DNA of 64,000 nt from Bradyrhizobium sp. NFR13 (GTDB lineage Bacteria > Pseudomonadota > Alphaproteobacteria > Rhizobiales > Xanthobacteraceae). The stretch covers positions 248,001 to 312,000 of the forward strand of contig NZ_FOTP01000001.1 of the NCBI RefSeq assembly GCF_900114605.1. The letters are read 5' to 3'. Below, one piece after another: positions 15,418 to 27,036 of this stretch. Each line of letters begins with the position of its first letter. Position 1 is the stretch's first letter. Position numbers and translations under genes: made by a program. The notes under the pieces were generated by a model. It was not told the origin of the DNA. It made no database searches and saw only the letters and a program-made list of their open reading frames with translations.

Positions 15418-16122
15418 TTATTTTGGGGCGGTTCCCCAAGGACCCGATTTGGGCGCTGTAGATGTGTCGGACTTGTGGACGTTTTGGTCGGTTGGAAAGC
15501 CCAGTCCGCGCAAATAAATCAGCGCACCGGCCTCCAGCAGGTCGTCCGGCGACATCGGCAATTTGCGCCGCGCGGCATCGCCGCGGCCGAACAGCGAGGC
15601 CACGCCATGCGCCAGCGACCAGATGTGCAGCGCCATCATCATCGCCGGCGGACGCGTCACGCCCGGCGGCGTCAAGGCGGCCAAACGTTCTGCCGCCGCA
15701 CGGATCACACCGAAGGCACGTTCTCCCGCCGCGGCCAGTTCAGGACTGGAATCTACGGGGATTCCGGATTCGAACATCGCCGAATAGAAGGCCGGTTCAG
15801 TGCGGGCGAAGTTCAAATACGCCTTGCCGATCCGCTCGAAGGCCGTGACCGTATTCGGACGGCCATCATCCCACGCCGCCGTCAGCACCTGCTCGAACTG
15901 CTCGAAGCCACGCTGCGCGATGCTGGCGAGGAGGTCGTCGCGATCGCGGAAATGGCGATAGGGCGCGGCCGCGCTGACGCCGGCCGTGCGCGCGGCATCG
16001 GCGAAGGTGAAACCCGCGGGCCCCTTCTCCGCGATCAGCCCGAGCGCTGCCTGCAGCAGCGCCTCTTTCAGATTTCCGTGGTGATAACCGCGCTCGCCGC
16101 GGCTGTCTTTGCGCCAGCTCAT
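15418..16122 (-). CDS. TetR/AcrR-family regulator with WHG-type C-terminal domain
   Basis: 234 residues. The N-terminal helix-turn-helix is clear (about 15-60: ALLQAALGLIAEKGPAGFT ... VSAAAPYRHFRDRDDLLA). The C-terminal ligand domain (about 85-205), with HIWSLAHGVASLFGRGD, matches the WHG domain found in TetR proteins that often control efflux or fatty-acid-related genes. Ligand unknown. A 23-bp palindrome 32 bases before its start suggests autoregulation. It lies upstream of and in the same direction as the DUF2852 gene. Confidence 0.9.
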   Translation of the reverse strand: MSWRKDSRGERGYHHGNLKEALLQAALGLIAEKGPAGFTFADAARTAGVSAAAPYRHFRDRDDLLASIAQRGFEQFEQVLTAAWDDGRPNTVTAFERIGKAYLNFARTEPAFYSAMFESGIPVDSSPELAAAGERAFGVIRAAAERLAALTPPGVTRPPAMMMALHIWSLAHGVASLFGRGDAARRKLPMSPDDLLEAGALIYLRGLGFPTDQNVHKSDTSTAPKSGPWGTAPK

Positions 16123-16153
16123 GTGAAGGGCTTTAACATAAGCCGGGCCAAAA

Positions 16154-16176
16154 GGTCACACCAAAACGGTGTGACC
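16154..16176. promoter_or_regulatory. Probable operator of the TetR gene
   Basis: GGTCACACC-AAAAC-GGTGTGACC: perfect 9-bp arms with a 5-bp centre, 32 bases before the TetR start codon. This is a classical position and size for autorepression. A shorter role as an RNA hairpin in the leader cannot be excluded. Confidence 0.6.
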
Positions 16177-16285
16177 GGCGCAAATTCCCTCAACAAATCA
16201 ACGCCCGCCGCATGCGGAAATCCTGCGGCAGGCATGCGGCCGTGTTGCGACACGACCGTTTCATGCCCGTCGCAGTGATTTTGCC

Positions 16286-16711
16286 TCAGCCGAGCCGCTT
16301 TGCGGTGGTCTGCATCTCCTCGAATCCCGAGGCGACGGCCTGCACGTCCTCCGGATAATCGGCCATTTCCTGCACCTGGCGGATCTCGATCACCTCGTTG
16401 GGCGTCGCCGGGCAGCGGCTGGCCCAGGCGATGGCCTCGTCGCGCGAGGCGACGTCGATCATCCAGTAGCCGCCCAGCACTTCTTTGGATTCCGCGAACG
16501 GCCCATCGGTCACCACCGGCTTGCCGGATGGAAAGGACACCCGCGCGCCCATCGATGGCGGGTGCAGTCCATCGCAGGTGATCAGCACGCCGGCATCCAT
16601 CAGCGCCTTGTTATAGGCCATCATCGCGGCGACGCGCTCGACGTCCTCCGGCACGGTGCCCGGCGCCGCAGTCTCATAGCCGCCGGGGATCATCAGCATC
16701 ATGAATCGCAT
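16286..16711 (-). CDS. YciI/DGPF-family protein (copy 1)
   Basis: 141 residues of the YciI-like ferredoxin-fold family, with the DGPF motif (VTDGPFAESKEVLGGYWMIDVASRDEAIAWASRCP) near 65-100. Proteins of this type are typically partners of ECF41/ECF42 sigma factors or act as small enzymes or ligand binders of unknown substrate. It follows another YciI gene after 27 bases, so the two are probably one transcript. The ATG at 16711 gives the usual MRFMMLM start. One such sigma factor lies 8 kb away (24592-25893), and a matching promoter is seen before the upstream YciI gene. Confidence 0.85.
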   Translation of the reverse strand: MRFMMLMIPGGYETAAPGTVPEDVERVAAMMAYNKALMDAGVLITCDGLHPPSMGARVSFPSGKPVVTDGPFAESKEVLGGYWMIDVASRDEAIAWASRCPATPNEVIEIRQVQEMADYPEDVQAVASGFEEMQTTAKRLG

Positions 16712-16738
16712 GGTCACTATCCCTATTGATCTCTTTGC

Positions 16739-17155
16739 TTATTTCTTCGCGGCTTGCGCGCGCAGCCGCTCTTCCTTCTCGCGCAATTCGGGTGTCAGAG
16801 CCTCGCCGAAATCCTCGGCCGCAAACACCTGACGGATCTCGATCTCGTCGCCGGACGCAAACGGCGCGCGCTTCATCCACGCGATTGCCTCGTCCTTCGA
16901 GGCAACGTCGATCAGCCAGAAGCCGGCAATCAAATCGCGTGTTACATCGAACGGCCCCTGCTTCACCACTGGCTCACTGCCGGTAAAGGTGATCCGCGCG
17001 CCTTTCGACGTTGGATGCAGCCCCTCGCCGGCCTGCATCACGCCGGCATTGCACATCTCCTCATTGAACTTGCCCATCGCGGTCAGCAGTTCCGTCGTCG
17101 GCATCACGCCGGCTTCGGTGTCCTTGTTCGCATGCACGATCACCATGAAACGCAT
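16739..17155 (-). CDS. YciI/DGPF-family protein (copy 2)
   Basis: 138 residues, MRFMVIVHANKDTEAG start and a VKQGPFDVTRDLIAGFWLIDVASKDEAIAWMKRAPF core in which the family Asp-Gly-Pro-Phe is Gln-Gly-Pro-Phe. Homologous to the next gene but clearly diverged. GGAG lies 8 nt before the ATG. First gene of the YciI-YciI pair. A TGTCGG-N17-CGTC promoter-like motif 37 nt before the start ties it to the ECF42-type sigma factor of this window. The biochemical role is unknown. Confidence 0.87.
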   Translation of the reverse strand: MRFMVIVHANKDTEAGVMPTTELLTAMGKFNEEMCNAGVMQAGEGLHPTSKGARITFTGSEPVVKQGPFDVTRDLIAGFWLIDVASKDEAIAWMKRAPFASGDEIEIRQVFAAEDFGEALTPELREKEERLRAQAAKK

Positions 17156-17191
17156 CGGTCTTTCTCCGTTGGAAGGTTCGACTGCAAGGAT

Positions 17192-17218
17192 GACGAAGCA
17201 GCTTTTGCCAGTCCGACA
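17192..17218 (-). promoter_or_regulatory. Candidate ECF promoter of the YciI pair
   Basis: Minus strand: TGTCGG (17218-17213), 17 nt, CGTC (17195-17192), followed by AT. Same sequence blocks and identical spacing as at 18325, 24579 and 26301. The CGTC lies 37 nt before the start codon. ECF promoters of the 41/42 groups have a TGTC-type -35 and a short CGTC- or CGA-type -10. Confidence 0.6.
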
Positions 17219-17252
17219 CGGGGCAAGAAATTATTTCAGAGGTCATGCAACC

Positions 17253-17618
17253 TTACGACGCCTGCTTCTGGAATACCCCATCCCTGTATGTCGCGCCGAA
17301 ATACACATCGATCGACCGGATGAGATCGCCCTCGAAGCCGAAGACTTCGGTGTTGCGAAAACTCTTGCCGTCCTTCGCCACGCAACGATAGGTCACGAAA
17401 GCCGTATCGCCATCGACGGCGATACGCTCAAGATCATGCTGCGCGATCCAGTCGGCGACACGCCAGCAGCGGGCGAAATAGGTCGCCTTGTCGATCCCGT
17501 CATCGAACGGGCTCGTAAAGGTGAAGTCGTCCGTGAACGCATCTTCGACGGCCTTGCGGTCATTGCGCAGATAGGCTGCAAACAAGTCTCGGATGATCCT
17601 GGCCTTGTCGGCACTCAT
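17253..17618 (-). CDS. SnoaL-like / NTF2-fold protein
   Basis: 121 residues. Single SnoaL-like domain: the helix IIRDLFAAYLRNDRKAVEDAF, the FTFTSPFDD stretch, and a final strand region IRSIDVYFGATYRDG. Such proteins may be small hydrolases, isomerases or ligand binders; no substrate can be assigned. The reading frame is open for 67 more codons upstream, but these overlap the GST gene; the ATG at 17618 has GGAGGAG 8 nt before it. It starts 5 bases after the GST stop codon, so it is surely co-transcribed with that gene and shares its ECF-type promoter. Confidence 0.85.
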   Translation of the reverse strand: MSADKARIIRDLFAAYLRNDRKAVEDAFTDDFTFTSPFDDGIDKATYFARCWRVADWIAQHDLERIAVDGDTAFVTYRCVAKDGKSFRNTEVFGFEGDLIRSIDVYFGATYRDGVFQKQAS

Positions 17619-17623
17619 GATGC

Positions 17624-18271
17624 TCACTCCTCCGGAAACATATGTGCATACGGCTCCGCCTCCTTCACCACCCGTGCGAATGATGGACGCGCCAGCAACC
17701 GGCCAAGATAGGCCGAGACGTTGCGATGTGCGTCTCCGAGCGGATGCACCTTGTTCGCGTAGTAGAGCGCCGGCGCAGCCGCACAGTCGGCGAGCGTGAA
17801 CGCTGTGCCCATCGCCCACGCGTTCGTCGCCATCTGCCTGTCGATCATGCCGTAGGACGTGGTGAGCAACGCCCGCGCCATGGCCACACCATGCGGATCC
17901 TTCTTGTCGGCCGGCACCAGACGGTCGCCGACGATCTTCTGCGTCGGCGTGTGCACATAGAGATCATAGAAGCGGTCGCGTAACCGCATCTGCAGGCCGG
18001 CGTCGCCATCGGGGATGAAACGCGTGCGGCCGGGAAAATGCCGGTCGAGAAACTCGATGACAATGGAGGACTCCGGCACGATCGCGCCGCGCGCATCGTC
18101 CTGCAGCACGGGGAATTTGCCGATCGGCCACAGTTTCAACAGCGCCGCGCGCTCGGCTTCGTCGCCGAGATTGACCATATGCGGCGTGAACGGCGTGTCG
18201 TTCTCGTACAGCGCGACCAGCGTCTTCCAGCAATAGGACGACAGCGGGTGATAGTGGAGCGTGAGCGACAT
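17624..18271 (-). CDS. Glutathione S-transferase family protein
   Basis: 215 residues. An N-terminal thioredoxin-like domain (about 1-80: LTLHYHPLSSYCWKTLVALYEN, then FPVLQDD with the cis-Pro, then ESSIVIEFLD with the Glu-Ser that binds the gamma-glutamyl group) and an all-helical C-terminal domain (about 90-215). Ser/Cys at the active site (SSYC) suggests a beta- or Ser-type class. Substrate unknown, probably an electrophile. AGGAG precedes the ATG at 18271. First gene of a GST-SnoaL pair with the shared TGTCGG-N17-CGTC motif 28 nt upstream. Confidence 0.92.
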   Translation of the reverse strand: MSLTLHYHPLSSYCWKTLVALYENDTPFTPHMVNLGDEAERAALLKLWPIGKFPVLQDDARGAIVPESSIVIEFLDRHFPGRTRFIPDGDAGLQMRLRDRFYDLYVHTPTQKIVGDRLVPADKKDPHGVAMARALLTTSYGMIDRQMATNAWAMGTAFTLADCAAAPALYYANKVHPLGDAHRNVSAYLGRLLARPSFARVVKEAEPYAHMFPEE

Positions 18272-18298
18272 GGTTTCTCCTGCATGTTGTTGCTGGAA

Positions 18299-18325
18299 GA
18301 CGAACAGGAACAGGCCGTTCCGACA
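18299..18325 (-). promoter_or_regulatory. Candidate ECF promoter of the GST-SnoaL pair
   Basis: Minus strand: TGTCGG (18325-18320), 17 nt, CGTC (18302-18299) followed by TT, 28 nt before the GST start. Identical blocks and spacing to three other sites near the ECF42-type sigma gene. Confidence 0.6.
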
Positions 18326-18432
18326 AGCCCATCGCAAAAATTTCGGCCGAAAATCCGGGCTTGTCCCGCCCTGCTCCGTCTCCTAAACAGGCCGCGCAAA
18401 CAACAAGCCATCGATAACCATCAGGGCAGGAC

Positions 18433-19236
18433 ATGACCAAGGCTGACGGCAAGGAACAGATTCGCAAGGTTGCACTCGTCACGGGCGCCGCACGCGGCAT
18501 TGGCCTTGCCGTGGCCAAGCGTTTTCTTGGCGAGGGCTATCGTGTCGCGCTGCTGGATATCGAACGCGAGCTGCTCGACGCCAGCGTCAAGGCGCTGAAC
18601 GATCCCGACAACACGCTGGCGCTGCATACGGATGTCTCCGACGCCGCTGCTGTCGACAAGGCCTTTGCTGCCACGCAGGCCCGCTTCGGCCGGCTCGATG
18701 CGCTGGTCAACAATGCCGGCATTGCGAATTTCAAGCCTCTGCTCGAGACGACGCTGGAGGAGTGGGAACGCATCATGGCCGTGAACCTCACCGGCCCGTT
18801 CCTGTGCACCAAGGCGGCGGCCCCCTTGATGCGCGAGCATGGCGGCGGCGCCATCGTCAACATCGCCTCGATCTCGGCGCTGCGCGCGTCCACCCTGCGC
18901 GTCGCCTACGGCACCAGCAAGGCCGGCATCATTCACTTCACCAAGCAGTCCGCTGTCGAGCTCGCGCTGCTCGGAATCCGCGTCAATGCGGTGGCGCCCG
19001 GTCCTGTCGAGACCGCAATGGCGAAAGCCGTGCATACGCCGGCAATCCGCGCCGATTATCACGATGCGATTCCGCTCAATCGCTACGGCGGCGAGGACGA
19101 ACTCGCCGACGCGATCTTCTTCCTGTGCAGCGACCGGTCGAGCTATATCACCGGCCAGATGCTGGCGGTCGACGGCGGTTTCGACGCCACGGGCATCGGC
19201 CTGCCGACGCTGCGGCGCGAGGGCATCAACGGCTAG
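18433..19236 (+). CDS. SDR-family NAD(P)-dependent oxidoreductase
   Basis: 267 residues, a classical short-chain dehydrogenase. Cofactor motif TGAARGIG near 17-24, NNAG near 92-95, catalytic Ser around 138 and the YGTSKAG (Tyr-x-x-x-Lys) motif near 157-163. The Asp after the second strand (LLDIERE) favours NAD over NADP. The C-terminal MLAVDGGF is standard. Substrate unknown. Divergent from the GST gene across 160 bases, in which I see the GST promoter but no matching ECF motif for this gene. Confidence 0.92.
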   Translation: MTKADGKEQIRKVALVTGAARGIGLAVAKRFLGEGYRVALLDIERELLDASVKALNDPDNTLALHTDVSDAAAVDKAFAATQARFGRLDALVNNAGIANFKPLLETTLEEWERIMAVNLTGPFLCTKAAAPLMREHGGGAIVNIASISALRASTLRVAYGTSKAGIIHFTKQSAVELALLGIRVNAVAPGPVETAMAKAVHTPAIRADYHDAIPLNRYGGEDELADAIFFLCSDRSSYITGQMLAVDGGFDATGIGLPTLRREGING

Positions 19237-19319
19237 CGAAAGTCAGTGCCCGGATGACGCGCAGCATCATCCGATTACACGACTTCCGGTTTCACGCATC
19301 TCCGCCAGCTTAGAGAGAT

Positions 19320-19337
19320 ACTAATTCCAGACTAATT
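19320..19337. repeat. Tandem ACTAATT repeat upstream of the receptor gene
   Basis: ACTAATT (19320-19326), CCAG, ACTAATT (19331-19337): 7-bp direct repeats with an 11-bp period, 80 bases before the TonB-dependent receptor start. Direct repeats on one face of the helix are typical of OmpR/PhoB-type activator sites. No Fur, Irr or RirA box was recognised. Confidence 0.4.
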
Positions 19338-19416
19338 GTATGACGCCCCGGACGTCTTTCGGCTGCGTCGCTGCGTGATAAGTCGCCTGCATCACTTGGT
19401 AATGGGGTGCGGGCAA

Positions 19417-21663
19417 ATGACATTCAAATCTTCCACACATCTGGGATGGCTGGTCGGGACGGCGCTGCCGATGCTGGCGCTGATCACGACGCCATCGCAG
19501 GCGCAATCGCCGCAAGGCAGCACGGCATTGCCGGCCGTTGTGGTGGATCAACCCGTTCGACCGGCCGCGCGTGCGCGCGCGACCCGCCCATCGACCGCAC
19601 GCGCGCGTGCAACGCGCCAGGCTGCGGCACGCAACAATGCGCCGGTTGCGGCTGCCATCGCGGCTCCCGGCGTTCGTGCCGAGACCGCCACCGGCCCGGT
19701 GCAGGGCTATCTCGCCAATCGCGGCATGGGCGGCACCAAGACCGACACGCCACTGCGCGAGACGCCGCAGTCGATCTCGGTCGTGACCGCCGATCGCATC
19801 ACCGACCAGGGCGGCCTGTCCGTGCAGGAAACCCTGCGCTATGTGCCCGGCGTGACCGCCGATCCGTTCGGCGGCGATGCCCGCGGCGACTACACATTGA
19901 TCCGCGGCCAGGAGCCGAGCCGCTATCTCGACGGCATGCAGGGCTCGCGGCTCAGCCAGGTGCTGGAATGGCGCCGCGATCCCTATGCGCTGGAGCGCAT
20001 CGAGGTACTGCGCGGGCCGTCGTCCGTGCTGTATGGCGGCTCGTCCACCGGCGGTGTGCTCAACGAAGTGTCGAAGCGCCCGCAGGCCGAATCCCGTAAC
20101 GAGATCGGCGTGCAATATGGCTCCTTCGACCGCAAGCAATTGCAGATGGACTCCACCGGCAAGCTGACCAAGGATGGCGAGTGGCTGTATCGCTTCGTCG
20201 GCGTGTTGCGCGACTCCAACTCGCAGGTCGACTACGTGCCGAACGACCGCATCCTGCTGGCGCCGTCGCTGACCTGGCGCCCGACCAACGACATCTCCTG
20301 GACCGTGCTCGGCAACTACCAGAAGGACAGTTCCAGCTCGTTCAGCGCCTTCCTGCCCATCGAAGGCGTGCTGAAGCCTGGCCCGAACGGCTTCATCCCG
20401 GTCAACCGCTTTGCCGGCGAGCCGAATTACGATCGCTACAACATCACCACCGGCGGCGTCACCAGCCTCTACGAGCAGAGCTTCGGCGATGTGCTGAAGA
20501 TCAAGCAGAGCTTCCGCTACAGCCACACCGACGGCGATTACGCCATCATGTATCCGGACCTGTATTCCAACCCGACGAATCCATTCCTGGATGCCGGCCG
20601 GCGTACCGTGCAGCGGATCTACTACGCCCGTCAGGCCGCGAAGGACGCCTTCACCTCCGACAGCAATGCCGAGATCAAGCTGCAGACCGGCGCGGTGTCG
20701 CACAAGGTGCTGGTCGGCATCGACTATCTCGGCCTGCACGAGAAAACCCGCAGCGGCACCGGCCTCGATCCGCGGCCATTCGATCTGTATGCGCCGGTCT
20801 ATAGTAGTTTCTCCGCGTCGCTGACCGACGATCCCCAGGCGCAGCAGCGCCAGACCGGCTTCTATGCCCAGGACCAGATGCGGCTGGGCCCGTGGCTGGC
20901 GCTGCTCGGCGTGCGGCAGGACTATGTCAGCTATAGTGTCGAGGGACTGCCCACCCAGAACGACAGGGCCACCACCGGCCGCGCCGCGCTGATGTACGAA
21001 TTGCCGTTCGGCGTGACGCCCTATGTGTCCTGGGCGCAATCGTTCAACCCGGTATTCGGCGCCAACACCTGCGAAAGCGGATTCTGCAAGCCGGTGCGCG
21101 GCGAGCAGTTCGAGGTCGGTTTCAAGTACAATCCGTTCGCCGGCACCGCGATCAATGCGGCGATCTACGACACCACCGAGCGCAACAGGCTGTCCTCCGG
21201 ACCCGGCGTCTTCTCGATCCAGACCGGCCAGGTGCGGATCAAGGGCGCCGAGCTGGAAGTGCTGACCAGCGTCACACCCAATCTCGACCTGATTGGCGCC
21301 TATGCCTATACCGACGCGCGGATCGAGTCCGGCGACAATGCCGGCAAGCGCGTCGCCAGCGTGCCGCAGCAGCAGGCCTCATTGTGGGGCAAATATCGCC
21401 TGGCATCGCTCGGCCTGCCTGACGTCACCGTCGGCGCCGGTGTGCGCTATATCGGCGAATCCTGGGACGGCATCGACGTGCTGCGCACGCCCGACTACAC
21501 GCTGTTCGACGCCATGGTGCGCTGGGACAACGGCTCGTGGCGGCTGCAGTTCAATGCGACCAATATTGCCGACACCCGCAACATCGCCACCTGTCTGTCA
21601 TTCGGCGACTGCTTCTACGGCATGGGCCGCACGCTGCTCAGCACCGCGACCTATCGGTTCTGA
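19417..21663 (+). CDS. TonB-dependent siderophore receptor (FhuA/FoxA type)
   Basis: About 748 residues. An outer-membrane 22-strand barrel importing ferric siderophores. Signal peptide ending near PSQAQ (about residue 30), a TonB-box-like LPAVVVDQP, an unusual Arg/Ala-rich linker (about 45-75), then the plug (about 95-215; ETPQSISVVTADRI, LRYVPGVTADPFGGDARGDY, IEVLRGPSSVLYGG) and the barrel ending in YRF with a C-terminal aromatic. Siderophore specificity cannot be told; the family includes hydroxamate receptors. The ATG at 19417 follows a GGGGTGCGGG stretch; ATG 19402 is an alternative. No siderophore synthesis or inner-membrane importer gene lies next to it. Confidence 0.93.
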   Translation: MTFKSSTHLGWLVGTALPMLALITTPSQAQSPQGSTALPAVVVDQPVRPAARARATRPSTARARATRQAAARNNAPVAAAIAAPGVRAETATGPVQGYLANRGMGGTKTDTPLRETPQSISVVTADRITDQGGLSVQETLRYVPGVTADPFGGDARGDYTLIRGQEPSRYLDGMQGSRLSQVLEWRRDPYALERIEVLRGPSSVLYGGSSTGGVLNEVSKRPQAESRNEIGVQYGSFDRKQLQMDSTGKLTKDGEWLYRFVGVLRDSNSQVDYVPNDRILLAPSLTWRPTNDISWTVLGNYQKDSSSSFSAFLPIEGVLKPGPNGFIPVNRFAGEPNYDRYNITTGGVTSLYEQSFGDVLKIKQSFRYSHTDGDYAIMYPDLYSNPTNPFLDAGRRTVQRIYYARQAAKDAFTSDSNAEIKLQTGAVSHKVLVGIDYLGLHEKTRSGTGLDPRPFDLYAPVYSSFSASLTDDPQAQQRQTGFYAQDQMRLGPWLALLGVRQDYVSYSVEGLPTQNDRATTGRAALMYELPFGVTPYVSWAQSFNPVFGANTCESGFCKPVRGEQFEVGFKYNPFAGTAINAAIYDTTERNRLSSGPGVFSIQTGQVRIKGAELEVLTSVTPNLDLIGAYAYTDARIESGDNAGKRVASVPQQQASLWGKYRLASLGLPDVTVGAGVRYIGESWDGIDVLRTPDYTLFDAMVRWDNGSWRLQFNATNIADTRNIATCLSFGDCFYGMGRTLLSTATYRF

Positions 21664-21695
21664 GGCGAACCGGTACCCACTTCGCTCGAAAACGC

Positions 21696-22178
21696 TCAGA
21701 GAACGCGCAGACCCAGCATAAAAAACGCCAGCGCGCCGGTGGATGCCACCGTGCGCACGTGGTTCCAGCCGGTCCAGACCGACAGATAGCGCGTCCACAG
21801 ACTTGTGGCCTCGGCGCTGTCGGCGGGCGCGGCAGCGAGCGCATCGTTCAGCGGTACGTTGAAGACAACCGTGACGAGGAAGGTGCCGACGGTATAGAGC
21901 ATCGCCCCCGTGACGAGGTAGGGTGATGCCGGATGCGACCAGTTCAGCACCGCGATCACAGCGATGATGACGCAGAGCAGCACCGTGCCCATGAAAGCGG
22001 TGAGAAACAGCGGACTGAGAATCGTGCTGTTGATCGACTGCATCGCGGCAATTCCGGCCGGCGCCGGCAGCTTGCCGAGCGCAGTCATCACCGTGACCGA
22101 GAACACGAAAAACAACCCGGCCATCAGGCCAGAGCCTATCGCCGCCGCAAATGTAAGACCGAACGACATTCGTCCCAT
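21696..22178 (-). CDS. DUF1772 membrane protein (anthrone oxygenase-like)
   Basis: 160 residues with four hydrophobic segments. The pattern GSGLMAGLFFVFSVTVMTALGKLPAPAGIAAMQSIN followed by VPLNDAL matches DUF1772, a family that includes fungal anthrone oxygenases; bacterial members are uncharacterised. Start: ATG 22178 or 22169, both near a GAGG; the frame further upstream overlaps the preceding gene and lacks a site. It follows the Bcr/CflA exporter after 40 bases and is likely in the same transcript. Confidence 0.8.
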   Translation of the reverse strand: MGRMSFGLTFAAAIGSGLMAGLFFVFSVTVMTALGKLPAPAGIAAMQSINSTILSPLFLTAFMGTVLLCVIIAVIAVLNWSHPASPYLVTGAMLYTVGTFLVTVVFNVPLNDALAAAPADSAEATSLWTRYLSVWTGWNHVRTVASTGALAFFMLGLRVL

Positions 22179-22218
22179 CCTCACCTCGACCACGTTGGCG
22201 CGCAGCCTAGCAGCTTTA

Positions 22219-23418
22219 CTACTCCGCGAGCTGCGGCGAAAGTTCGCGCGGACGTAGCGTGGCGATACTGACGGCAAGCGCACCGACCGCCGTGCTGGCA
22301 ATGGTCGCGACCATCGGCAGCGAGGTGCCGTCGAAGAACAGCCCGGACACGCCGATCATCACGCCGCCACTGACCATCTGCAGCGTGCCACCCAGGGCGG
22401 AGGCGATACCGGCGATGGGACCATGGTTCTCCAGCGACAGCACCATGGTCGACGGGATCACCAGACCAAGGAAGGCGAAGGACACAAACAGCAGCGGAAT
22501 CAGCAGGGCAAGGCTTGTGAAGCCGACCAGTGTCAGCGCCAGCAGCACGACTGCGAAAAACGCATAGGCCGACACCGCCGCCATCACAACGCGGCCCATG
22601 CCGAAGCGGCCACCGAGGAAACCCGCAAATTGCGAGGCGCCGATGAAGCCAATGGCGTTCACCGAGAAAGCAAGGCTGTATTGCGTCGGCGTCAGGCCGT
22701 AGTGACCGATATAGACAAAGGACGATGTCGCGAGGAACGCGAAAAAGCTCGCCATGCCGAGGCCGCCGATGAAGGTGAGCCCGAGAAAGTGCCAGTCGCG
22801 CAGGAGTTCGCCGAAGCTGCCGAGCACATTGCGCACACTGCCCGAGATGCGCTCATGCGCAGGGCGCGTCTCCGGCAGCAACAAGGCCACCAGCACGAGG
22901 GCAATGACGGCTGCGATGGTCGTTGCGACAAACACCGCGCGCCAGCCGAACGGCGCGATCAACGCGCTGCCGCCGAGCGGCGCGAGGATTGGTGACACCG
23001 AGAAGACCAGCATCACCAGCGACATCAGTTTCGTCGCCTCGACGCCGGTGTGCAGATCGCGAATGATGGCACGCGGAATCACGCCCATGGCAGCGGCGCC
23101 GAGACCCTGGACGAAGCGGAACGTGATCAACCAGGCCACACCCGGCGCCAGTGCACAGCCGATCGAACCCGCAATAAACAGCATCAGACCCGCATAAAGC
23201 GGCGCCTTGCGGCCATAGACATCGGACAACGGACCATAGGCGATCTGGCACAGGCCGAAAGCAATGAAGAACGCGATCAGCGTCATCTGCGTCGCCGAGG
23301 TCGTGGTGTGCAGGTCGGCAGTGATCGCCGGCAGCGCCGGCAGATACATGTCGATGGCGAAGGGGCCAACGGCGGAGAGCAGGCCGAGCACGACGGCGTT
23401 GCGGGTAAAGGCGGACAT
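22219..23418 (-). CDS. Bcr/CflA-family multidrug efflux MFS transporter
   Basis: 399 residues, 12 predicted transmembrane helices. A drug/proton antiporter of the Bcr/CflA branch: the N-terminal DMYLPALPAI motif with an Asp in helix 1, motif A GPLSDVYGRKAPLY between helices 2 and 3, and an RFVQGLGAAAMGVIPRAIIRDL stretch with the antiporter Arg. Substrates are unknown; relatives export bicyclomycin, chloramphenicol or sulfonamides. It is probably co-transcribed with the DUF1772 gene. The 271 bases before it contain a palindromic element but no gene. Confidence 0.93.
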   Translation of the reverse strand: MSAFTRNAVVLGLLSAVGPFAIDMYLPALPAITADLHTTTSATQMTLIAFFIAFGLCQIAYGPLSDVYGRKAPLYAGLMLFIAGSIGCALAPGVAWLITFRFVQGLGAAAMGVIPRAIIRDLHTGVEATKLMSLVMLVFSVSPILAPLGGSALIAPFGWRAVFVATTIAAVIALVLVALLLPETRPAHERISGSVRNVLGSFGELLRDWHFLGLTFIGGLGMASFFAFLATSSFVYIGHYGLTPTQYSLAFSVNAIGFIGASQFAGFLGGRFGMGRVVMAAVSAYAFFAVVLLALTLVGFTSLALLIPLLFVSFAFLGLVIPSTMVLSLENHGPIAGIASALGGTLQMVSGGVMIGVSGLFFDGTSLPMVATIASTAVGALAVSIATLRPRELSPQLAE

Positions 23419-23620
23419 GGGATTTTCTTTTCTCGCTCAACGTGGCCGTGACGCATCTTTCGATCGCTGATCGTGACACGCCGGCTGGAATGAGGGGCAA
23501 GGCACAGCCCCTCACAACACCAAAGATCTCTCGGGGCGCCTTGTAGCGGAAGCGCCCCCCAGACGCCAATCAAGCCGCTGGCATTGTGCTCTACCCTTCA
23601 CCCGCCGCAAAGATGCGGCG

Positions 23621-23670
23621 ACCTCTCCCCGCCTAGCGAAGCTTCGCTTCGCGGGGATGCGGGGAGAGGT
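23621..23670. repeat. Palindromic intergenic element (ACCTCTCCCCGC type)
   Basis: Perfect 12-bp outer arms ACCTCTCCCCGC (23621-23632) and GCGGGGAGAGGT (23659-23670), with an inner GCGAAGC / GCTTCGC hairpin. Located just after the VOC gene stop and well before the exporter gene. Elements with this core are widespread in rhizobial genomes; here it could serve as a terminator. Confidence 0.7.
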
Positions 23671-23689
23671 TAAGGAAGAAAGCCCGCGC

Positions 23690-24097
23690 TTATTCAAACG
23701 CGCAATTGATCATCCAGGGAGCGCCGAATTTATCGACACACATGCCAAATCCCTTTGACCAGAACGTGGCGCCGAACGGCATCTTGATGGTGCCGCCCTC
23801 GGACAATGCCGCGAAGACCTTGGCGCCATCTGCGGCATCCTTGATCTGCAGACAGACCGACATGCCCTGCATCTTTTCGAAGTAATCTGGCGGCGCGTCC
23901 GAAGCCATGATGACCGCGCCATCGACCGAGATCTGGCCATGCAGCACTTTCTTGGCCATCGACGGCGGCATCTGTTCCGCCGCAGGCGAGCCTTCCACAT
24001 GCATGATGACGTCGATCTTGGCGCCAATCGCCTTCACATAGAAATTGAGGGCCTCTTCGCAATTGCCGTTGTAGTGAAGATAGGGATTGACCTGCAT
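23690..24097 (-). CDS. VOC-family protein (PhnB / YjdN-like)
   Basis: 135 residues of the vicinal-oxygen-chelate fold: NPYLHYNGNCEEALNFYVKAIGAK at the start, the middle HGQISVDGAVIMASDAPP, and the end FGMCVDKFGAPWMINC. This subgroup is annotated as PhnB or glyoxalase-like; its members have no agreed activity and are unrelated to phosphonate use despite the name. GGAGGAAAG precedes the ATG. It starts 15 bases after the DoxX-like gene and shares its promoter, which carries the same motif as the sigma-factor operon. Confidence 0.9.
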   Translation of the reverse strand: MQVNPYLHYNGNCEEALNFYVKAIGAKIDVIMHVEGSPAAEQMPPSMAKKVLHGQISVDGAVIMASDAPPDYFEKMQGMSVCLQIKDAADGAKVFAALSEGGTIKMPFGATFWSKGFGMCVDKFGAPWMINCAFE

Positions 24098-24112
24098 CGT
24101 TCTTTCCTCCGA

Positions 24113-24514
24113 TTAAAGACTTTGGGGGCGGATCGGGATCATCGCGCGTAAACGGGGATCGCGCAGGTACAGCCCGCCCCATGCCATTACGCCGATGTAA
24201 AAGCCAAACAACAGATGCGTGAACAGCGGGCTGTCGACGCGCAGATGCGTTGCCATCGCGCCACCAAGCAACCCGGTGAGCAGGATTGCGCCGAGGATCG
24301 ACGTTTGCGGCAGCGCGTAGAGCAAGGCGCAGAGCAGCGTGATGATGCCGAGCAGACGCGCCTGATTGACGCTGCCGCTATAGCCGAGCTGCTGCATGGT
24401 CTCGGTGACCTCCTTGATCGGCACCAGCTTGATGCCGCCGTCCATGACCAGGAAGAGGACTACGAGGGTACTGAGGATGCGGCCGATCCAGATTGAGGCA
24501 CGGGAAATGGGCAT
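24113..24514 (-). CDS. DoxX-like membrane protein
   Basis: 133 residues with four transmembrane helices. IGRILSTLVVLFLVMDGGIKLV and the later GYSGSVNQARLLGIITLLCALLYALP match the DoxX_2 family. DoxX relatives are small membrane proteins linked to oxidative or thiol stress; exact function unknown. The ATG at 24514 has AGGA 7 nt before it; the preceding TTG is not needed. It follows the sigma factor gene after 77 bases, in which lies its own TGTCGG-N17-CGTC motif 39 nt before the start. Confidence 0.85.
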   Translation of the reverse strand: MPISRASIWIGRILSTLVVLFLVMDGGIKLVPIKEVTETMQQLGYSGSVNQARLLGIITLLCALLYALPQTSILGAILLTGLLGGAMATHLRVDSPLFTHLLFGFYIGVMAWGGLYLRDPRLRAMIPIRPQSL

Positions 24515-24552
24515 CAAATGGTCCTGCGGTTCGAATGGTGTGTCGTCTCAAA

Positions 24553-24579
24553 GACGAGCGGCGTGGGCGCAATCCGACA
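24553..24579 (-). promoter_or_regulatory. Candidate ECF promoter of the DoxX-VOC pair
   Basis: Minus strand: TGTCGG (24579-24574), 17 nt, CGTC (24556-24553) followed by TT, 39 nt before the DoxX-like start and directly behind the sigma-factor gene. Same blocks and spacing as the three other sites. Confidence 0.6.
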
Positions 24580-24591
24580 CCGCCATGAAAA

Positions 24592-25893
24592 TTATTTCGG
24601 ACCGGCTGCCTTGTTCTTGGCCTTAATTGCAACCTTCGCCCGCGGCTTGCTCTCCAGCATCAGCCGGTCGAGATGCATCCGGATGTGATCGGCCTCCGCC
24701 GACGTATTTGCCAGCGCGATGGCGCGGTTGAAGCTCTCGCGCGCTTCGTCATTGCGGTCAAGTTGCATCAGATAGGCGCCCTGCACGCCGAAAAAGTGGA
24801 AGTAATTTGAAAGTTTCGCGGCCAGCGGCGCGATCATCTCCAGCGCCGCTTCGGGGCCGCGCACTTTCGACACCGCCACCGAGCGATTGAGCGTGATCAC
24901 CGGCGACGGCTGCAGGATTTCCAGCGACCCATAAAGCAGTTCGATCTGCGCCCAGTCGGTATCTTCCGGCTTGGCCGCGCGGGCATGGAGCGCAGCAATG
25001 GCCGCCTGGATCTGATAGGCGCCGGTGCGGCGATGGCGCATCGCCTTGTCGATCAACGCCAGGCCTTCGGCGATCATCTTGCTGTTCCACAGCGTGCGAT
25101 CCTGATCGTCGAGCAACACCAGCGCGCCATTGGCATCGAAGCGCGCCGCCGAGCGGGCATATTGCAGCAGCATCAACGCGACCAGGCCCATGATCTCCGG
25201 CTCGGCGGGAAACAGCTTGAGCAGCAACCGGCCCAGACGGATCGCCTCCTCGCACAACGGCGCGCGGAGATTGATACTTTCACCTGACGCCGAATAGCCC
25301 TCGTTGAAAATCAGATAGAGCATGGCGGCCACGGCAGCGAGACGCTCGCTGCGCTCCGGCGCGCCCGGCGTCTCGAACGGCACATTGGCCTTGGCCACGG
25401 CAGATTTGGCGCGGGTAATGCGCTGTTCCATCGCGGCGTCCGAGACGAGGAACGCGCGTGCGATCTGCTTCACTGTCAGGCCCGAGACGATCCGAAGTGC
25501 CAGCGCGATTTGCTGCGTCGCCGGGAGCTGCGGATGGCAGCAGATGAACAGCAGCCGCAGGATATCGTCGCGATAATGCGAGCCATCAAGCCGGTCGGCG
25601 AGCTCGCTTTCGGCATCATCCAGATCAGATATCGCATGGTCGTCGTCCGGCAGCGGCTGCTGTTTCGCACCGCGGCGGATATCGTCGATGGCGACGTTGC
25701 GGCCAACCATGATGAGCCAGGCTGCCGCATCGCGCGGCGGGCCGTTCTGCGGCCAGGTCTTCAGCGCCCGCAGGCAGGCGTTCTGGAACGCCTCCTCCGC
25801 AGTGTCCAAATTGCGGAAATAGCGCAGCAGCGCGCCGAGCGCCTGGGGACGCGCCGAGGTCAGCGCCGCATCGATCCAGGCGACATCGGTCAT
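24592..25893 (-). CDS. ECF42-type RNA polymerase sigma factor with C-terminal extension
   Basis: 433 residues, far longer than a plain ECF sigma factor. Region 2 (about 8-80, AEEAFQNACLRALKTWP and WLIMVGRNVAIDDIRR), region 4 (about 115-165, QQIALALRIVSGLTVKQIARAFLVSDAAMEQRITRAK), then about 260 residues of helical, TPR-like extension beginning LYLIFNEGYSA (DUF6596). This architecture defines ECF42, whose genes are coupled with YciI/DGPF genes. In ECF42 the extension, not an anti-sigma protein, is thought to control activity. Its ATG overlaps the YciI stop codon (ATGA). The signal is unknown; the neighbourhood suggests detoxification of reactive compounds. Confidence 0.93.
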   Translation of the reverse strand: MTDVAWIDAALTSARPQALGALLRYFRNLDTAEEAFQNACLRALKTWPQNGPPRDAAAWLIMVGRNVAIDDIRRGAKQQPLPDDDHAISDLDDAESELADRLDGSHYRDDILRLLFICCHPQLPATQQIALALRIVSGLTVKQIARAFLVSDAAMEQRITRAKSAVAKANVPFETPGAPERSERLAAVAAMLYLIFNEGYSASGESINLRAPLCEEAIRLGRLLLKLFPAEPEIMGLVALMLLQYARSAARFDANGALVLLDDQDRTLWNSKMIAEGLALIDKAMRHRRTGAYQIQAAIAALHARAAKPEDTDWAQIELLYGSLEILQPSPVITLNRSVAVSKVRGPEAALEMIAPLAAKLSNYFHFFGVQGAYLMQLDRNDEARESFNRAIALANTSAEADHIRMHLDRLMLESKPRAKVAIKAKNKAAGPK

Positions 25894-26255
25894 GGCTGGA
25901 ACGCTCCGTGAAAGACGCCAATGGGTCGGATCTCATAGGCCCCGCCGGGATTGGCGCGGCCGAGGTCCTGCGCAATCTCCAGCGCGCCATCGAGGTTTTC
26001 TGCCTCGACGACGTAGAAACCGAGCAACTGTTCCTTCGTTTCAGCGAAGGGGCCGTCCAGCACCACCGGCGGCTCGTCCTTGCGCAGCGTTGTCGCCGCG
26101 GTGGTCGGCAGCAGGCGCGCCACCGGGCCGAGCCGGCCCTGCTGCGCCAGCTTGCCGTGCACGACGGCGAGCTTCGCCATCACGGCGTCGTCTTCGTCTT
26201 TCGACCAGCCGCCGACAACGGCTTCATCATGGTAGCAAAGGATGGCGTACAGCAT
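25890..26255 (-). CDS. YciI/DGPF-family partner of the ECF42 sigma factor
   Basis: 121 residues. MLYAILCYHDEAVVGGWSKDEDDAVM start and LDGPFAETKEQLLGFYVVEAENLDGALEIAQDLGR core with an intact Asp-Gly-Pro-Phe motif. Translationally coupled to the sigma gene by a 4-base overlap, the standard ECF42 arrangement. AAGGAG precedes the ATG. A promoter-like TGTCGG-N17-CGTC lies 20 nt before the start, which fits self-activation by the sigma factor. It may sense or process the inducing compound; this is inference. Confidence 0.92.
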   Translation of the reverse strand: MLYAILCYHDEAVVGGWSKDEDDAVMAKLAVVHGKLAQQGRLGPVARLLPTTAATTLRKDEPPVVLDGPFAETKEQLLGFYVVEAENLDGALEIAQDLGRANPGGAYEIRPIGVFHGAFQP

Positions 26256-26274
26256 GAGGGCTCCTTGGATGAAA

Positions 26275-26301
26275 GACGGTCGGCACGGTGCGATGCCGAC
26301 A
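26275..26301 (-). promoter_or_regulatory. Candidate autoregulated ECF promoter of the YciI-sigma operon
   Basis: Minus strand: TGTCGG (26301-26296), 17 nt, CGTC (26278-26275) followed by TT, 20 nt before the YciI start. This is the site expected for self-activation, and its match to the sites at 17192, 18299 and 24553 is what defines the motif. Confidence 0.62.
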
Positions 26302-26376
26302 GGTTAGCGGAAATTATTGTTGGGAGCGCGGCGAATGCTGAGCAGGTTCCGCAGACGCGTCAGCGCGCAGAACCGA

Positions 26377-27036
26377 TCAAGCGACAGCCCGACACAGGAT
26401 GCTGACCGCACCGTTGGCAATGGCCTGCAATTCGGTGCGGGGAACGCCAGCTCGAGCGCGAACCGCCAGCGAATATAACGTCGCGGACGCCATCTGCGAG
26501 AGCACGGCGATATCGGTCGCTGCAGGCAGCTCGCCACGTTTCACCGCAGTGCGGAAGCACCAACCAAAGGCGTCATCGACATCCGCAAAGCCCTGATGGA
26601 CGAGTGCACGAATCTCGGGATCGGCGATGGCGTCCGACGCCACCGTCATCACGGTAAAACAGCCGCGCGGCTGTTCGCCCGACAGATAAATATCGAGCGC
26701 GACTTCGAAGAAGCGCCGTAACCGTTCGCGAATGTCGATATCGGCCTTGAAGATATCGACCATCGGCGCCGTGTAGTCCTCGCGGTAGCGCTGGTAGCTC
26801 TTGATATAGAGCGCGCGTTTGTCGCCGAAGGCGCCATAGAGACTCGGTCGGTTCATGCCGGTCACAGCGCTGAGATCGTCGAGCGACGTCGCGGCATAAC
26901 CATCCCTGCGAAACACCGCCAGCACCTGCCCCAACGCCACGTCCGGCTCATAGGCACGCGGCCGCCCCCGTCGTTTGGGCTCGGCAGGTACCTCCGGCTT
27001 TGCTTTCGCGACCGTGCCTTTTCTTTTTTGTACCAT
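26377..27036 (-). CDS. TetR/AcrR-family regulator
   Basis: 219 residues. A basic Lys/Arg-rich leader (KRRGRPRAYEPD) precedes the HTH (about 30-80, VLAVFRRDGYAATSLDDLSAVTGMNRPSLYGAFGDKRALY). The C-terminal domain has the GCFTVMTVASDA stretch of the TetR_C family seen in regulators of redox-active or electrophile-detoxifying enzymes. A Cys in that stretch could be a sensor. Divergent from the GST gene at 27136. A long imperfect inverted repeat spans its start codon and the intergenic region, so it probably represses itself and the GST gene. Confidence 0.9.
   Translation of the reverse strand: MVQKRKGTVAKAKPEVPAEPKRRGRPRAYEPDVALGQVLAVFRRDGYAATSLDDLSAVTGMNRPSLYGAFGDKRALYIKSYQRYREDYTAPMVDIFKADIDIRERLRRFFEVALDIYLSGEQPRGCFTVMTVASDAIADPEIRALVHQGFADVDDAFGWCFRTAVKRGELPAATDIAVLSQMASATLYSLAVRARAGVPRTELQAIANGAVSILCRAVA

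Follow-up and report, generated by a model that had tools for sequence, protein, structure and literature searches.

A predicted regulon of an ECF42-type sigma factor in Bradyrhizobium sp. NFR13, read from the promoter motif TGTCGG-N17-CGTC

Which genes does the sigma factor encoded in a 64,000-nt stretch of Bradyrhizobium sp. NFR13 DNA (contig NZ_FOTP01000001.1, positions 248,001 to 312,000; hereafter the window) transcribe? The motif TGTCGG-N17-CGTC (N, any base) matches exactly four times in the window, every time on the minus strand, and one of these sites lies before the operon of the sigma gene itself. From sequence comparisons, we put the probability at about 0.92 that this ECF42-type sigma factor drives at least 11 operons through this motif.

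The sigma factor and the four motif sites

All four motifs lie between open reading frames, each 5' of a two-gene operon. The gap from motif to ATG is 36 nt at 17192-17218, 27 nt at 18299-18325, 38 nt at 24553-24579 and 19 nt at 26275-26301. The two bases after CGTC are AT at the 17192 site and TT at the other three (18299, 24553 and 26275). Dinucleotide shuffles of the window contained a mean of 0.32 matches and at most 2, and 0/100 shuffles reached 4. An earlier, sequence-only reading of the window had located the same four sites, placed them shortly before start codons with TT or AT after CGTC, and expected well under one chance match per 64 kb; all of this was reproduced, with measured gaps of 19-38 nt. 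Its gene names (YciI-sigma, DoxX-VOC, GST-SnoaL and YciI-YciI) agree with the Pfam order of the downstream genes, which is YCII-sigma, DoxX_2-(3-dmu-9_3-mt/Glyoxalase), GST-SnoaL_2 and YCII-YCII. The promoters in the following list are predicted.

26311..26318, minus strand: A/T-rich, UP-element-like element upstream of promoter 1, read from the window sequence
26275..26301, minus strand: promoter 1, TGTCGG-N17-CGTC, 5' of the YciI-sigma operon, exact match
25890..26255, minus strand: YciI-family protein, 121 residues, 4-nt overlap with the sigma start (PF03795)
24592..25893, minus strand: ECF42-type sigma factor, 433 residues, with C-terminal extension (PF04542, PF08281, PF20239)
24553..24579, minus strand: promoter 2, 5' of DoxX-VOC, exact match
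24113..24514, minus strand: DoxX-like protein (PF13564)
23690..24097, minus strand: VOC / YjdN-like protein (PF06983 and PF00903; NF007537 below its cut-off)
18299..18325, minus strand: promoter 3, 5' of GST-SnoaL, exact match
17624..18271, minus strand: glutathione S-transferase (GST)-like protein (PF13417 and others)
17253..17618, minus strand: SnoaL-like protein (PF12680)
17192..17218, minus strand: promoter 4, 5' of YciI-YciI, exact match
16739..17155, minus strand: YciI-family protein (PF03795)
16286..16711, minus strand: YciI-family protein (PF03795)

The sigma protein matches Sigma70_r2 (PF04542) and Sigma70_r4_2 (PF08281) above cut-off and no other sigma region; TIGR02937 is also above cut-off. 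The region 4 match ends at residue 165 and is followed by a long C-terminal extension with DUF6596 (PF20239) at residues 184-285. In the predicted structure the extension forms helix pairs from about residue 230 to 390. The predicted local distance difference test score (pLDDT) of 10-residue blocks is 81-96 over residues 231-390, and the mean of the whole model is 74. The best PDB matches of the model in Foldseek are mostly TPR proteins mixed with ECF sigma factors, all of them weak (best E 2.5e-3), and a Pfam scan of the sigma protein gave no TPR match. The closest named relatives, with up to 98% identity, are in Tardiphaga, which makes it probable that the host belongs to this genus.

The surroundings of the gene were compared in the best 80 of 304 orthologue loci (1.48 Mb). 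A YciI gene lies directly 5' of sigma in 80/80 loci. The two genes overlap in 71/80 loci, and 8 of the remaining 9 also have a 4-nt overlap if a start 9-12 nt earlier is used; one locus, L103, has a gap. A fusion of YciI and sigma genes, cited for Caulobacter in the available part of PMC8999054, was sought in the 80 loci and none was found. A Pfam scan of the 13 other proteins nearby (15418-27036) revealed no recognisable anti-sigma gene. With regions 2 and 4, DUF6596 and the adjoining upstream YciI gene, the protein bears out the earlier description of an ECF42-type sigma factor with a long C-terminal extension.

The motif as a promoter across loci and genomes

The 17-base spacing is strongly preferred. 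In the 80 loci TGTCGG-N17-CGTC occurs 205 times, and at least once in 79/80 loci; spacers of 12-16 and 18-22 bases give 3-34 matches each. The position of the sites is stronger evidence for a promoter than these counts. An ATG with a Shine-Dalgarno-like sequence was found 10-60 nt downstream of 153/197 N17 sites, after exclusion of 8/205 sites too close to the locus end. The fraction was 137/178 for sites with HT (H being A, C or T) after CGTC and 16/19 for the others. Only 10/119 sites at spacings 13-16 and 18-22 and 248/5000 random positions had such a start, and the fully reversed pattern gave 2 usable sites only, 0 of them with a start. Upstream of the YciI-sigma operon the motif is present within 200 nt of YciI in 72/80 loci, in 71 of those 19-34 nt from the start, and the spacer sequences are diverse. 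For this operon, conservation before orthologues in relatives, a check that the sequence-only reading had proposed, was found in these loci.

The motif also tracks the sigma factor across the family. When 198 genomes were scanned for the sigma factor and for TGTCGG-N17-CGTCHT, motif density was 1.22 per Mb in the 87 that hold an orthologue at least 69% identical. It was 0.45 per Mb in 35 genomes where a more distant relative was all that matched (best E about 1e-136 to 1e-61) and 0.39 per Mb in 76 genomes with neither. The reversed control gave 0.19, 0.26 and 0.21 per Mb in these three groups. The Mann-Whitney p for orthologue genomes against the rest is 2.7e-22, with no correction for relatedness. 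Genomes of both kinds are found in 10 genera; in these the mean was 4.87 motifs with an orthologue (n=52) and 1.67 without (n=30), and a permutation stratified within genus gave p 1e-5, which is the floor of that test. Together, these results make it very probable that TGTCGG-N17-CGTC is the promoter of the ECF42-type sigma factor.

The whole NFR13 genome holds 43 exact copies of the bare pattern against 25 of the reversed one, a mild enrichment only. Adding HT after CGTC leaves 11 sites, against 3 in the reversed control. A matrix of spacer and flanks, trained on the 205 sites from the orthologue loci, scored 11/43 genome sites above zero, exactly the TGTCGG-N17-CGTCHT set, and the other 32 at -4.4 or lower. 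An ATG with a Shine-Dalgarno-like sequence lies 19-95 nt downstream of 11/11 high scorers and within 110 nt of 4/32 low scorers, with the start picked by script. This is the genome-wide scan that the sequence-only reading had suggested; the sites before starts are chiefly those of the HT form. Seven of the 11 sites are outside the window, before AHSA1, MFS_1, DUF899, DUF1428-Glyoxalase, Glyoxalase-3-dmu-9_3-mt, YCII and GST genes. The proposal of a local ECF42 regulon thus stands in one part: spacing, position, co-occurrence and synteny support a predicted regulon that includes the four window operons, and with 7/11 predicted operons elsewhere in the genome a local one is ruled out. Allowing up to one mismatch gave 110 genome sites against 92 for the reversed control, which adds nothing clear to the 11 exact sites.

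Similar target genes recur in other genomes. In 16 further orthologue-holding genomes (4 congeneric, 12 from other genera) all 121 HT sites were taken; 90/121 scored above zero, and a start within 110 nt was found for 75/90 high scorers against 10/31 low scorers. The first genes cluster as YciI 22, AHSA1-like 9, GST 8, YjdN-like 7, VOC 7, DUF1428-like 6, DUF899-like 6, MFS 5, DoxX 3 and others, the names being given by likeness to Pfam-scanned proteins of the NFR13 genome and a few picked frames looking wrong. AHSA1, VOC, DUF1428, DUF899 and GST clusters occur in 4/4 same-genus genomes and MFS in 3/4.

ECF42 sigma factors are described as widely distributed, and with so strict a promoter the members of the regulon can be recognised directly in the sequence. 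The recurring targets (YciI, GST, VOC, AHSA1, DUF899 and DUF1428) hint at the chemistry that is countered, and the regulon gives several families that lack a name a shared physiological context.

The core of this picture is already known for Sinorhizobium meliloti RpoE10 (ECF42, SMc01150), for which the available part of PMC6180224 gives the same promoter and the same kinds of target. Three promoters of the RpoE10 group are printed there, all TGTCGG-N17-CGTC, and RpoE10 overexpression raised six genes, with glyoxalase-like and hydrophobic-ligand-binding proteins as targets. We located the three promoters in DNA: strain Ak57 supplied two, and pSymB of strain 1021 the third. They stand before YciI-sigma, an SRPBCC gene and a PF06983 (3-dmu-9_3-mt, glyoxalase-like) gene, and by eye all three have an A/T tract upstream. 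The YciI and sigma genes overlap by 4 nt as in the window, and the sigma proteins are 68.8% identical (strain Ak57). These likenesses support the assignment of the window protein as the probable ECF42-type counterpart of RpoE10. The earlier view that grouping such enzymes under one sigma factor of this type was new does not hold, since that promoter and pairing are published. In contrast to the six genes induced in S. meliloti, 11 operons are predicted here, and GST, DUF899, DUF1428, MFS and DoxX are not listed for RpoE10 in the part of the paper available. No description of a wider regulon of this kind was found in the open-licence PMC literature; as far as that search shows, what is added here is a longer list of targets, the A/T element and the contrast between paralogues described below.

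Mechanism and alternative explanations

Sigma region 4 would read TGTCGG as the -35 element and region 2 would read CGTC as the -10 element, with the spacing fixed at 17; this binding of sigma to the motif is what we infer from the data above. At positions -16 to -13 before TGTCGG the A+T content of 189 sites is 91%, against a background of 35%. Such an A/T element, some 14 nt upstream of the motif, is what would be expected of an UP element; it would assist the promoter and may be contacted by the alpha subunits. RNA polymerase would thereby be directed to at least 11 operons encoding YciI, GST, VOC, DoxX, SnoaL, AHSA1-type SRPBCC, DUF899, DUF1428 and MFS proteins. The TPR-like C-terminal extension, probably with the co-translated YciI, may set the activity of the sigma factor instead of an anti-sigma factor. 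Judging by the target families, the trigger would be toxic or oxidative chemical stress and the role detoxification. The motif at the sigma operon makes positive feedback possible, and whether the YciI-sigma operon is autoregulated is uncertain.

The uncertainty comes from the promoter of that operon. The available part of PMC6180224 reports that in S. meliloti SMc01151-rpoE10, which carries the same motif, was not induced by RpoE10 overexpression and that there the motif overlaps the mapped start. The sequence CATANT occurs within the spacer of 32/69 sigma-operon promoters (loci L034-L113) and of 4/140 other sites, and GGCATA in 32 sigma-operon sites and 5 others; these counts are dominated by related species. 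It is possible that CATANT marks an embedded second promoter or a binding site. With CATANT as a -10 element, transcription would begin close to CGTC, a situation reminiscent of S. meliloti. There is a real, if minority, chance that the targets depend on sigma while the sigma operon is not autoregulated, its motif being silent or competing with an overlapping housekeeping promoter. Against this stand the exact motifs in 72/80 sigma operons, which with their diverse spacers suggest selection for use. Moreover, no good housekeeping -35 element for CATANT was seen by eye in the sigma-operon promoters, and CATANT is missing from promoter 1 of the window.

Two further explanations would deny the sigma factor any part in the motif. 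Genes of the TetR family lie on either side of the cluster (26377-27036 and 15418-16122), and the motif could be an operator for such a regulator. This is very improbable: the two half-sites differ and form no palindrome, the distance to the start suits a promoter, mapped starts in S. meliloti are preceded by this very sequence, and the density of the motif goes with the presence of the sigma orthologue. The idea that the sites cluster by chance in G+C-rich DNA draws on the small excess of the bare pattern over its reversal, and is hardly credible in view of the spacing, position, co-occurrence, within-genus and whole-genome tests, the HT form effectively refuting it.

Several observations weigh against a sigma-driven regulon of this size, or against the strength of the tests for it, the non-induction of the S. 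meliloti operon among them. A control with each half of the motif reversed also peaks at N17, with 34 matches, as many as the real motif has at N13. Because the 80 loci are related, coding sequence that they have in common can raise the raw counts, which then overstate significance. The motif before YciI-sigma is missing in 8/80 loci. Some genomes that appear to lack the sigma factor may be broken assemblies; in G138 the motif lies at a contig end. The flank score was trained on motif-picked sites, some from near-identical Tardiphaga loci, and is not independent of the motif. Finally, 15/90 high scorers in the 16 genomes have no ATG with a Shine-Dalgarno-like sequence within 110 nt at the script-picked start.

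Related sigma factors and neighbouring features

The same genome has a second ECF42-type sigma factor (G000:C9:168016-169197), 44% identical to that of the window. It has the same domains, with region 4 just under the Pfam cut-off, and a gene upstream that is YciI-like by sequence likeness. Before this pair stands TGTCGT-N17-CGAC, preceded by an A/T tract (L127:4531-4557, G000:C9); the spacing is again 17 bases and the two elements differ from those of the window sites. TGTCGT-N17-CGACTG has matches in 61/198 genomes, many with chance-like spacers. In the NFR13 genome it has 1 site against 2 in the reversed control, so the count is uninformative and the location before paralogues is what counts. 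By eye, the site lies 403-543 nt before the listed paralogue sigma gene in 16 genomes, NFR13 included.

Twenty paralogue upstream regions were chosen from a longer list. TGTCG(T/A)-N17-CG(A/T)C is present in 18/20 and absent from 2/20; in a few regions the site is distant from, or not clearly before, the frame bearing DGPF. The sixth -35 base in the 18 is T in 8 (7 with CGAC) and A in 10 (8 with CGTC, 2 with CGAC). This pattern suggests that one -35 base, and in part one -10 base, may keep the paralogues apart. A broader scheme is put forward tentatively, at somewhat less than even odds. In this ECF42 specificity code the 17-base spacer, TGTCG and the A/T element would be constant, and the sixth -35 base (G, T or A) together with CGTC or CGAC would vary and insulate coexisting paralogues. 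The window-type sigma factor would be the hub of a genome-wide regulon of a dozen detoxification-type operons, its promoter carrying the CATANT second promoter in many species, and the paralogue may control hardly anything except its own operon.

Other ECF42 systems share the long extension and the neighbouring YCII gene. For Pseudomonas putida ECF-10 and Streptomyces venezuelae Sven_0747, Sven_4377 and Sven_7131 the extension is described as TPR-rich and a YCII gene lies nearby (PMC8999054, PMC8103513 and PMC9023288, in the parts available). By the same partial sources, the extension of about 200 residues is essential for activity (PMC8999054, PMC9023288) and the YCII protein has been suggested to take part in it (PMC8999054).

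The span 17192-26301 also holds SDR, TonB-dependent receptor, Bcr/CflA-type MFS and Anthrone_oxy-type genes. They have no such motif upstream and are outside the predicted regulon. Directly past the VOC gene, at 23621-23670, is an inverted repeat, ACCTCTCCCCGC...GCGGGGAGAGGT, with an inner palindrome; it resembles a terminator or a repetitive extragenic palindromic (REP) element. Elsewhere in the genome a YciI gene (L133:6384-6794, G000:C12) behind the same motif is 57% identical to the sigma-linked YciI. No sigma gene was seen beside it in the adjacent listed open reading frames, and it is possibly a second partner for the sigma factor. Three copies of the 27-mer TGTCGGGATTCCGGGTTCGGTCCCGTC are present in the genome (G000:C4:428, C7:255542 and C11:214095); it is perhaps a dispersed repeat, not a promoter.

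A relative of the sigma factor (44%) is carried on plasmids of P. aeruginosa and Acinetobacter. In one Pseudomonas aeruginosa plasmid record (L278) sigma is followed by YciI, YciI, NTF2-like and VOC genes. There TGTCGA-N17-CGAC stands upstream of the initial YciI gene and of the NTF2-like gene. Sigma matches are also present in plasmid records of Klebsiella (64) and Escherichia (29).

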